Below, piece by piece: positions 35,889 to 44,562 of a stretch of 45,461 bases of DNA (position 1 is its first letter; each line of letters starts with the position of its first letter). This stretch comes from Acidiferrobacterales bacterium (lineage in GTDB: Bacteria; Pseudomonadota; Gammaproteobacteria; Acidiferrobacterales; Sulfurifustaceae), in the NCBI GenBank assembly GCA_919902925.1, contig CAKKRZ010000035.1, forward strand, positions 1,663 through 47,123, written 5' to 3'. The notes under the pieces were generated by a model. That model searched no databases, had not been told where the DNA came from, and worked only from the letters and a program-made list of their open reading frames with translations. The translations under genes and the position numbers were made by a program.

Positions 35889-36128
35889 CTGAGCCGTCCT
35901 GGCCGCGTACCGCGCTCCCGCCGTTGACTGCCGCGACGCTGCGCGCGACGCCGGAGGATTTCATCGTTGAAGAGCGTATGCCATTCACCCTGGCCGGCGC
36001 GGGCGAACACCTGTGGGTGAAGCTGTGCAAGCGCGGCCGACACCGAGCAGGTGGCAAAGCAGCTTGCGCGTACGGCCGGAGTGTCCGGTCGGGTGTTCCC
36101 GTATTTTCCGTTAATATCCTGTGCATGA
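35885..36128 (+). pseudogene. Frameshifted 5' remnant of a second truD
   Basis: The translated stretch LRATPEDFIVEERMPFTLAGAGEHLWVKLCKRG aligns to the start of TruD (compare LRTQPEDFVVSEELGFPLTGSGEHVW in the intact gene at 39184). After KRG (about 36031-36038) the homology shifts to the +1 frame and continues as ADTEQVAKQLARTAGVSGR, then stops at about 36091. The rest of TruD, about 300 residues including the catalytic Asp, is missing. The shifted frame ends at a TGA that overlaps the ATG of the next gene. By eye about half the residues match the intact copy, so this is not a recent duplicate. Confidence 0.8.
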
Positions 36129-37069
36129 ATCCTGAACGCCTGAAGATTGTGGACGTCGCGGTCGGTGTGGTCCAACAATCAGACGGCCGAGTCCTGCTGG
36201 CTGAGCGGCCTCCCGGAAAACCGTGGGCTGGATACTGGGAATTTCCGGGTGGCAAGATCGAGCCCGGAGAGAGTGCCCTGCAGGCCCTCAGTCGCGAACT
36301 GCACGAGGAACTCGGCATCGAGATCGATCGCGCCTACCCGTGGATTACCTTCAACTACGCCTACCCCGAGAAACTCGTGCGCCTGCATTTCTACCGCGTA
36401 CACGTCTGGCACGGCACACCCCATGGGCGCGAAACGCAGCGCATGTCATGGGAGGACCCGCTCGCCATCGGTGTCCAGCCGCTGCTGCCGGCCAACGAGT
36501 CGGTTCTGCGCGCGCTGAACCTGCCGCCGGTGTATGCCATCACGAATGCCGGCAAGCTCGGTGTCGATGCATTTATGGACCGGCTTCGGGCGGCACTGAA
36601 GAGCGGGGTGCGGCTGATTCAGGTGCGCGAGCCGCCGATGGCTCCGGCACAACTGGCGGAATTCGCCCAGCAGGTGGTGACTCTTGCCCACGCGCACGGT
36701 GCACGGGTATTGGTTAGCGGCGACAGGGTCGTCGCGCAACGCGCCGGCGCCGATGGTGTGCATCTGCCGGCAGAGCAGCTGATGATGCTCTCGGCCCCGC
36801 CCGACACGGGGTTGTGGGCAGCCTCGTGCCACAACGCCGCTGAATTGGCGCGCGCCGCCCAACTCAACGCCAGCTTCGTGGTGCTGTCTCCGGTATTGCC
36901 GACGCCGACCCATCCCGAGGCCGCCGGCATGGGTTGGGGGAGATTTGCGGAGCTGATTCGCGACTACCCGCTGCCGGTGTATGCGCTTGGCGGCATGAAG
37001 CTCGATCATCTGGACACAGCCATGCAGCGCGGCGCACACGGTATCGCGCTCCTGAGCGGTATTTGGTGA
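36125..37069 (+). CDS. Nudix hydrolase (MutT-type) fused to a ThiE-like domain
   Basis: 314 residues in two domains. Residues 1-130 are a MutT-type Nudix hydrolase with the full Nudix box (GGKIEPGESALQALSRELHEELGI near residue 40). Residues about 135-314 resemble thiamine phosphate synthase (YAITNAGKLGVDAF, VRLIQVREPPM, GADGVHLP, VVLSPVLPTPTHPEA, YALGGM). This fusion is known in Pseudomonas and other gammaproteobacteria; it probably cleans 8-oxo-dGTP, while the role of the ThiE-like half is unclear. The ATG lies inside the truD remnant, with no clear Shine-Dalgarno sequence. Confidence 0.9.
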   Translation: MNPERLKIVDVAVGVVQQSDGRVLLAERPPGKPWAGYWEFPGGKIEPGESALQALSRELHEELGIEIDRAYPWITFNYAYPEKLVRLHFYRVHVWHGTPHGRETQRMSWEDPLAIGVQPLLPANESVLRALNLPPVYAITNAGKLGVDAFMDRLRAALKSGVRLIQVREPPMAPAQLAEFAQQVVTLAHAHGARVLVSGDRVVAQRAGADGVHLPAEQLMMLSAPPDTGLWAASCHNAAELARAAQLNASFVVLSPVLPTPTHPEAAGMGWGRFAELIRDYPLPVYALGGMKLDHLDTAMQRGAHGIALLSGIW

Positions 37070-39183: not shown

Positions 39184-40296
39184 ATGTCTGATCTATTCCC
39201 GACCGCGGCCTCGCCGCCGCTGGTGTCCGCGCTGCTGCGAACCCAGCCGGAGGATTTCGTGGTCAGCGAGGAGCTGGGTTTCCCGCTCACCGGTTCCGGT
39301 GAACACGTGTGGCTGCGCGTCCGCAAGCGCGGTTTCAACACCGACCAGGTCGCCGGCCACCTCGCGCGCCGCGCCGGGGTATCGCGCCGCAACGTCAGCT
39401 ATTCCGGCATGAAGGATCGGCATGCCGTGACCGAGCAGTGGTTCAGTGTCTGGCTGCCACGCGCCGAGGTAGCGAACTGGCAGGATGGCATGCCCGAGGG
39501 TGTCGAGGTGATCGAGGTTACCCGCCATTCACGCAAGCTGCAACGCGGCGCCCATCGTTCCAACCGGTTCATCATCACGTTGCGGGAATGTGCCGGTGAC
39601 GCCGCATTGGCCGCACAACGGCTTGCCGAAATCGCCCGGGACGGTGTGCCTAATTATTTCGGTGAGCAGCGTTTCGGGCGTGACGGCGACAACGTGGCTC
39701 ATGCCGAGGCGATGTTCGCCGGGCAGGAAGAGGCGCGGGATAAGCACCGGCGCGGTATCTATCTGTCGGCGGCCCGCTCCTTCCTGTTCAATCTGGTGCT
39801 GGCCCGCCGCGTCACAGACGGCAACTGGAACCGCATCCTGCCGGGCGAAGCGTTGATGCTGGATGGCAAGAACAGCTATTTTATCGCCGATGGGATCAAG
39901 GCGAGGGCCGCAGGCCAAGGACGGCCTGATTGCGGTTTTGCCGATGAAACAGACGACACCCTGTGTGAGCGGTTAGAGCGTCACGACATCCACCCGAGCG
40001 GGCCGTTGTGGGGCGAGGGTGAACTGCCGAGCCGTGGCGAGGCCCGCGCGCTGGAAGAGGGCATCGTGTCTGAACATCGCCCGCTGGCCGATGGGCTCGC
40101 CGCTGCCGGCCTGCGCCAGGAGCGCCGCGCCCTGAGGCTGATACCGGCCGGGCTTTCGCACCAGTGGCTCGACCCGGCCACGCTACGGCTGGAATTTTCC
40201 CTGGCGCGCGGTTGCTATGCCACGACGGTGCTGCGCGAAGTGGCCAACTACCGGAATGCGGCCGGCCAGTCCGGAGCGGGCGACTCGGGAGACTGA
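39184..40296 (+). CDS. truD: tRNA pseudouridine(13) synthase TruD
   Basis: 370 residues. The catalytic region is SYSGMKDRHAVTEQWFSV with the conserved Asp near residue 78; other family blocks are HRSNRFIITLR, GVPNYFGEQRFGRDG, the DIHPSGPLWGEG segment, and the C-terminal FSLARGCYATTVLRE. It makes pseudouridine 13 in tRNA-Glu. A stretch of about 18 residues between IADG and FADE is extra compared with what I expect for TruD and corresponds to a palindromic insertion. It lies 27 bases after the TerC gene and 3 bases before the SemiSWEET gene. Confidence 0.95.
   Translation: MSDLFPTAASPPLVSALLRTQPEDFVVSEELGFPLTGSGEHVWLRVRKRGFNTDQVAGHLARRAGVSRRNVSYSGMKDRHAVTEQWFSVWLPRAEVANWQDGMPEGVEVIEVTRHSRKLQRGAHRSNRFIITLRECAGDAALAAQRLAEIARDGVPNYFGEQRFGRDGDNVAHAEAMFAGQEEARDKHRRGIYLSAARSFLFNLVLARRVTDGNWNRILPGEALMLDGKNSYFIADGIKARAAGQGRPDCGFADETDDTLCERLERHDIHPSGPLWGEGELPSRGEARALEEGIVSEHRPLADGLAAAGLRQERRALRLIPAGLSHQWLDPATLRLEFSLARGCYATTVLREVANYRNAAGQSGAGDSGD
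39893..39946 (+). repeat. In-frame palindromic insertion inside truD
   Basis: GCCGATG is present at 39886-39892 and again at 39940-39946, exactly 54 bases (18 codons) apart. The intervening DNA contains CCGCAGGCC and GGCCTG plus GCGG, an imperfect inverted repeat around AAGGAC (about 39908-39934). Removing one 54-base unit joins SYFIAD to ETDDTLCERL, which is a normal TruD sequence. The unit therefore looks like a small palindromic insertion with a 7-base target duplication. Confidence 0.65.
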
Positions 40297-42220: not shown

Positions 42221-42530
42221 ACTGATGCTCCCTTACGATTATTCGTGTTCTGGAAATGCGGCCGCCATCATACCGCCATTGGCGGTCCGGGTTGAGGGCC
42301 GGCCGGCCCCCGGAAATGCTATAGTTTCGCCGATGGGAGACGTAATAGGCGGGACGCCAGGGACACGTGTCCGAGGGCCGCGCGCCGTAACGGAAGCCCT
42401 ACTCGCTCTGCTCGTTCGTCCTGTCATAAAATCAGCCGCGATAGCGGCTTTGCGGTTCCCGGCCGGCCCGTCGCCGTACCGGGGCGGGCGGATCGACCGA
42501 ATCTAAATTTTATCGCGCAGGAGAAGAATC
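42221..42530. other. Divergent intergenic region with dispersed-repeat fragment and palindrome
   Basis: 310 bases without a gene. It contains a CCGCC-ATT-GGCGG hairpin near 42274, a TATAGT word near 42319, a perfect 12-base palindrome GGACACGTGTCC (42361-42372), and at about 42392-42423 a copy of the word AGCCCTACTCGCT...GCTCG.TCGTCCTG that also occurs inside the MITE-like element near 15734-15763. The purE ribosome-binding site AGGAGAAG is near 42521. Confidence 0.55.
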
Positions 42531-44492: not shown

Positions 44493-44562
44493 CGGCGCAC
44501 TGAAGCCGAAGGCGCGACATCCTGTCGCACGGCCCTCGACTCAATCCCATCGCCGACGCGCC

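Follow-up and report, generated by a model that had tools for sequence, protein, structure and literature searches.

The question raised by this locus is how a truD gene can carry 18 additional codons and remain an intact reading frame. The stretch of DNA analysed here (45,461 nucleotides, referred to as the window) comes from an Acidiferrobacterales bacterium, and truD, which encodes the tRNA pseudouridine(13) synthase, occupies positions 39184-40296 on the forward strand (assigned from the list of open reading frames, the NCBIfam TruD models and PDB entry 1sb7).

An insertion of 18 codons in truD

We observed that the truD reading frame was uninterrupted despite the insertion and encoded a product of 370 aa, and in profile searches the NCBIfam TruD models spanned the inserted segment (E 2e-114). 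When the protein was aligned with its relatives (45-62% identity), it was longer by exactly 18 residues than each of the eight sequences that spanned the site, and the extra residues fell between SYFIADGI and DDTL. The E. coli enzyme (1sb7) was also shorter at this position. The original prediction that removing one unit would restore a normal TruD was thus correct, as was its observation that GCCGATG occurs twice, 54 bp apart, inside the intact frame (at 39886 and 39940). The length of 47 bases that it had given for the insert was not; the unit gained is 54 bp. This unit lies at 39885-39938 on the forward strand, is translated in the truD frame as ...GIKARAAGQGRPDCGFAD..., and scored 76.5 bits with the covariance model described below (R1).

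An AlphaFold model of the protein was confident overall (mean pLDDT 84.8). The sole internal segment with a pLDDT below 50, residues 239-254, falls within the inserted peptide, which is predicted to form a disordered loop.

The remnant of a second truD was seen at 35900-36060 of the window. It covers roughly 40 codons from the start of the gene, with 49% identity to TruD residues 5-53, and opens a 381-aa reading frame (35924-37069), the remainder of which resembles, by eye, Nudix/MutT and thiamine-phosphate synthase proteins.

A dispersed repeat with a two-hairpin fold

A BLAST search with the truD insert found 48 places in the genome (G000, a 2.2-Mb draft that is 87.6% complete). The covariance model R1, built from 43 distinct copies, was then run on the draft with 150 candidates scored and found at least 144 places at E<=0.1, in genes and between genes, which were grouped in 123 clusters. 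The commonest length was 54 nt (98/144 copies), and other copies measured 53, 81, 96 or 123 nt. The 81-nt form carries 27 additional nucleotides in hairpin 1, the 96-nt form carries 42 in the apical arm (TACTCGCTTCGCTCGTTCGTCC), and the 123-nt form combines the two extensions. Tandem arrays had a period of 54 bp, and some copies were nested within the apical-arm sequence of other copies. None of 4227 Rfam models matched at E<=1 when five loci with copies were searched.

The window itself holds three copies. Besides the one in truD, there is a long form of 123 nt at 42328-42450 (forward strand; R1 E 0.0025), extended in hairpin 1 as well as in the apical arm; its inserts of 30 and 48 nt stand at the expected places, and its layout is that of the 123-nt copy at C44:4972-5094. 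The third, a 53-nt copy at 44503-44555 (reverse strand; R1 64.5 bits), lies between two genes and has a CGGC variant of hairpin 1.

Numerous copies were located at contig ends of the draft (C9, C43, C81, C103, C124, C148 and C167), so assembly probably fails at the repeat, and the genome would hold more copies than were counted. Two copies, C146:4680 (L062) and C45:6377 (L054), are flanked by another palindromic repeat, of the AACGCAGATAAACGCGGAT type, into which they seem to have inserted.

The original prediction had also described an imperfect inverted repeat in the unit, and this is real. The unit folds into CGCC/GGCG and then GGGCCGC/GCGGCTT, the latter enclosing an inner arm of 5 bp. On the forward strand of truD, the left arm of hairpin 1 (CGCC, 39885-39888) pairs with the right arm (GGCG, 39900-39903), and other copies show a compensatory change from C-G to G-C. 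The left arm of hairpin 2 (39905-39916; outer GGGCCGC, inner AGGCC) pairs with an inner right arm (GGCCT, 39923-39927) and an outer right arm (GCGGTTT, 39932-39938), with double changes at 5/5 inner and 4/7 outer pairs. The folding energy of the truD copy alone was weakly unusual (z -1.7 as DNA and -2.0 as RNA). Over the 43 distinct copies, standard pairs filled 97.7% of pair cells against a shuffled mean of 86.8%, double changes were present at 10 of 16 pairs, and the covariation score was 0.293, far above shuffled (0.099) and slid (<=0.087) controls. None of 500 shuffles reached the observed values of pairing, double change or covariation. Among imperfect pairs, G-T exceeded A-C by 16:4, a weak bias in a statistic that ignores the relatedness of the copies, hinting weakly that one particular DNA strand folds.

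In-frame insertion, target and codon register

To place the copies relative to genes, a codon score trained on G000 was applied to 240 bp on either side of each cluster, with the element itself ignored; the codon phases given here rest on these flank scores and on a subset of the copies in the genome. Away from contig ends or gaps, 93 clusters could be scored. Coding DNA was present on both flanks in 26 of them, and in 21 the frame was identical across both flanks, as for an element that lies within a gene without shifting its frame. Three clusters had flanks on the same strand in different frames, all of them boundaries between two genes, and two had flanks on opposite strands. Many copies were intergenic. 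Within genes, the sense and antisense orientations numbered 6 and 13.

The host genes named by profile searches, in addition to TruD, were Rep, UvrD, CoaBC, MurD, FtsQ, GlcF-like, RecB/AddA-like, GlnE, RlmN, GcvPA, MoeA, Mfd, glutaredoxin, a CopA-like ATPase, PpsA, PrmA, YgfZ, an ABC-F-like ATPase, MnmE, FolE2 (near its start) and an M23 peptidase; a number of these hosts are not in the set of 21, since the copy is close to a contig end or had a score for just one flank. The profile matches broke exactly at the element in Rep, MurD, FtsQ, GlnE and RlmN. The MurD insertion consists of three units (204 bp), and that in FtsQ is the 96-nt form. Twelve further in-frame cases were found in the related genomes G045, G007 and G004, with GlnE and CoaBC among the hosts and, by eye, GpmI, CysS, HemB and TsaD.

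In GlnE, the element occupies a similar inter-domain linker in two genera (L163 1420-1555; L230 1300-1395), as if this linker were a tolerant hotspot or the insertion an old one. At the gene boundaries L182 and L046, the element appears to supply coding ends: the stop codons of the gene that lies upstream of a 55-nt copy, and a possible KdsC-like N-terminus (MPQTRHPW...).

One codon register was common to 32 of the 33 in-frame cases (21 here and 12 in relatives), reading ...ADGIEARAAGQGWPVCGF... in sense and ...AANAPSLARGPRLDPIGE... in antisense. The exception was an 81-nt copy at C86; the YgfZ copy (C60), which is not in the automatic set, is also in a different register. When we examined the flanks of single copies, the preceding base was T in 78/83, and the bases beyond the other end of the element were C in 64/83 and G in 51/83. 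The target is T^CG, and insertion is precise, just after the T, although this T could be the element's own, being able to pair with the A at position 20. In host coding DNA, 69% (sense) and 76% (antisense) of T|CG occurrences are already in the observed phase, so the choice of target explains most of the register bias. A count of 32/33 against an expectation of about 0.72 gives p ~3e-4 if independence is assumed, and this excess suggests selection.

The same flanks bear on the proposal that the GCCGATG repeat was a 7-base target duplication, which does not hold. The first GCCGATG (39886-39892, forward strand) is part of the element's left end, where GCCGA is intact in 36 of 43 single copies; the second (39940-39946, forward strand) belongs to the host gene, where it encodes Ala-Asp, and GCCGATG recurs in the right flank of just 2/43. 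The repeat in truD is therefore a matter of target similarity or chance and not a target site duplication. Nested copies gave the same answer, since their joined flanks aligned without gaps to intact paralogous apical-arm sites, with exactly 54 bp gained and no duplicated base at these empty sites. By the same two observations, the target site duplication expected of a classical MITE was not seen.

Mobility, rival readings and known systems

The element was present in 10 of 57 genomes of the order, G000 included. Copies numbered 103 in G000 (under stricter filters), 28 in G045, 20 in G007, 8 in G004 and 6 in G002, and a few carriers had one or two. Among 274 genomes sampled across the class there was one other carrier, with a single copy. 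A pattern scan of ~85,000 species genomes gave matches in MAGs of Gammaproteobacteria/Pseudomonadota, several of them from groundwater; one contig in a Nitrospira bin also matched, but its coverage is low and it may be stray. Searches of phage, plasmid and viral collections gave no match.

The reading that we consider probable is a non-autonomous, very short mobile palindrome of two adjacent hairpins, inserted precisely at T^CG-like targets without duplication by an enzyme acting in trans. The element would spread by entering just after the T of such targets, most likely as a folded single strand on which that enzyme acts. In GC-rich genes one codon phase accounts for most T^CG sites (NTC|G; GAN when read from the opposite strand). 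Every major size form has a length divisible by 3, and the 54-nt consensus unit is free of stop codons in all six frames; together with the target phase, these properties would let an insertion add 18 (or 27, 32 or 41) residues in frame. Copies on tolerant surface loops, even of core proteins, would then survive selection. We infer past or present mobility and functional neutrality. As to the original prediction of a small palindromic element that enters coding DNA in frame, similar in idea to the Rickettsia palindromic elements (RPEs), the in-frame cases, the genomic copies and the empty TruD site bear it out, whereas its 7-base target duplication falls away. A bolder form of our reading, offered tentatively and with somewhat less than even confidence, is that the element represents a new class of very short mobile DNA, with two hairpins in 54 nt and neither a terminal tag nor target duplication, moved by an unrecognised enzyme, in which the T^CG preference, the length divisible by 3 and the stop-free frames make up a 'coding-compatible' strategy for colonising essential genes.

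The alternative that survives best, although we think it rather unlikely, is an element of the REP/RAYT type or one derived from IS200/IS605, in which hairpins are moved as single strands by a Y1 (HUH) transposase without target duplication. The hairpin anatomy, the entry 3' of a short target with no duplication and the strand-biased wobble pairs, which resemble Y1 chemistry, agree with it, and intragenic REPs are documented (PMC3733652). However, Y1_Tnp was not found in four of the five main carriers (G000, G002, G004 and G007; G045 has one), all searched as incomplete assemblies, while many relatives without the element are rich in it, and the 54-nt consensus ends in neither GTAG nor CGTC. 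Mobilisation by a reverse transcriptase was set aside, as no RVT_1 was found in the incomplete assemblies of G000 or G045.

It is improbable that selection maintains the element as an exapted peptide or as a functional RNA or DNA site (for example in processing or nucleoid binding) and that it is not selfish. Strong compensatory change does hold the fold across divergent copies, and the many intergenic copies would suit such a role. The host proteins are unrelated, however, and with both orientations represented neither a peptide nor an RNA strand is consistent; the taxonomic spread is also narrow.

We regard as very improbable a cargo-less, attC-like folded site moved by an integron integrase. 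A full integrase (498 bits) is encoded in G000 at C110:209-1150 (L236 170-1162), several genomes of the order have one, the carriers G007 and G002 among them, and the two-hairpin fold with its variable apical arm recalls attC. Against this, the element has no RYYYAAC/GTTRRRY core, nothing resembling attC was found within 12 kb of the integrase, and the junction is T^CG and not G^TT. The two also occur apart, as G045 and G004 carry the element without a full integrase and G003, G005 and G008 show the reverse. Finally, ordinary tandem duplication or slippage in truD, which the 7-bp direct repeat around the insert might evoke, is refuted by the dispersed copies, as the 54-bp sequence occurs at more than 100 unrelated loci and TruD sequence outside the insert is not duplicated.

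As a mobile palindrome, the element would add a new case, from free-living bacteria, to the rare 'selfish DNA inside proteins' that is best known from Rickettsia. To our knowledge, no mechanism has been agreed by which selfish palindromes colonise core genes in frame. The element offers, outside Rickettsia, a boundary that is exact, a target rule that can be measured (T^CG, no duplication) and a bias in codon register, which together make the question of frame-keeping testable; the phase of the target would supply most of it and selection the rest.

RPE-1 to RPE-10 are short palindromic repeats found in frame in unrelated genes, with a conserved encoded peptide at positions predicted to be solvent-exposed (PMC3767692; PMC10969869). 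The element resembles them as a dispersed palindromic repeat with covarying hairpins (144 matches) that enters pre-existing reading frames of unrelated function (21 clusters, and 12 cases in relatives). It differs in its core of 54 nt, against about 100-150 bp for RPEs, in its modular two-hairpin fold and in its gammaproteobacterial, free-living hosts (groundwater and similar MAGs). A CGTC tag is reported for RPE-4/-6 (PMC3733652), while the 54-nt consensus begins CGCC... and ends ...CTT, without such a tag.

With the GTAG/CGTC REPs the element shares high-copy palindromes, dimers and arrays, and some in-frame copies in genes. It differs from them in its larger double hairpin, which has +27 and +42 modules, in lacking either terminal tag in its 54-nt consensus, and in that no RAYT was found in four of its five main carriers. 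The QMITE1 and QMITE2 repeats of Coxiella burnetii are also gammaproteobacterial, non-autonomous and overlap reading frames (PMC5896051), but they measure 150-400 bp and have direct repeats, in contrast to 54 nt and no target duplication here. Since terminal GTAG/CGTC tags, and a RAYT in G000, were looked for and not found, we do not file the element as a REP or RPE; by analogy, it would work like the RPEs, which were compared by description, and the intragenic REPs. The known hosts of intragenic GTAG/CGTC REPs include UvrD/Rep helicases, RecBCD and pseudouridine synthases (PMC3733652), and the parallel with Rep, UvrD, RecB-like, Mfd, TruD and MnmE here is striking; this overlap in victim genes (Rep/UvrD, RecB-like, pseudouridine synthases) is worth explaining.
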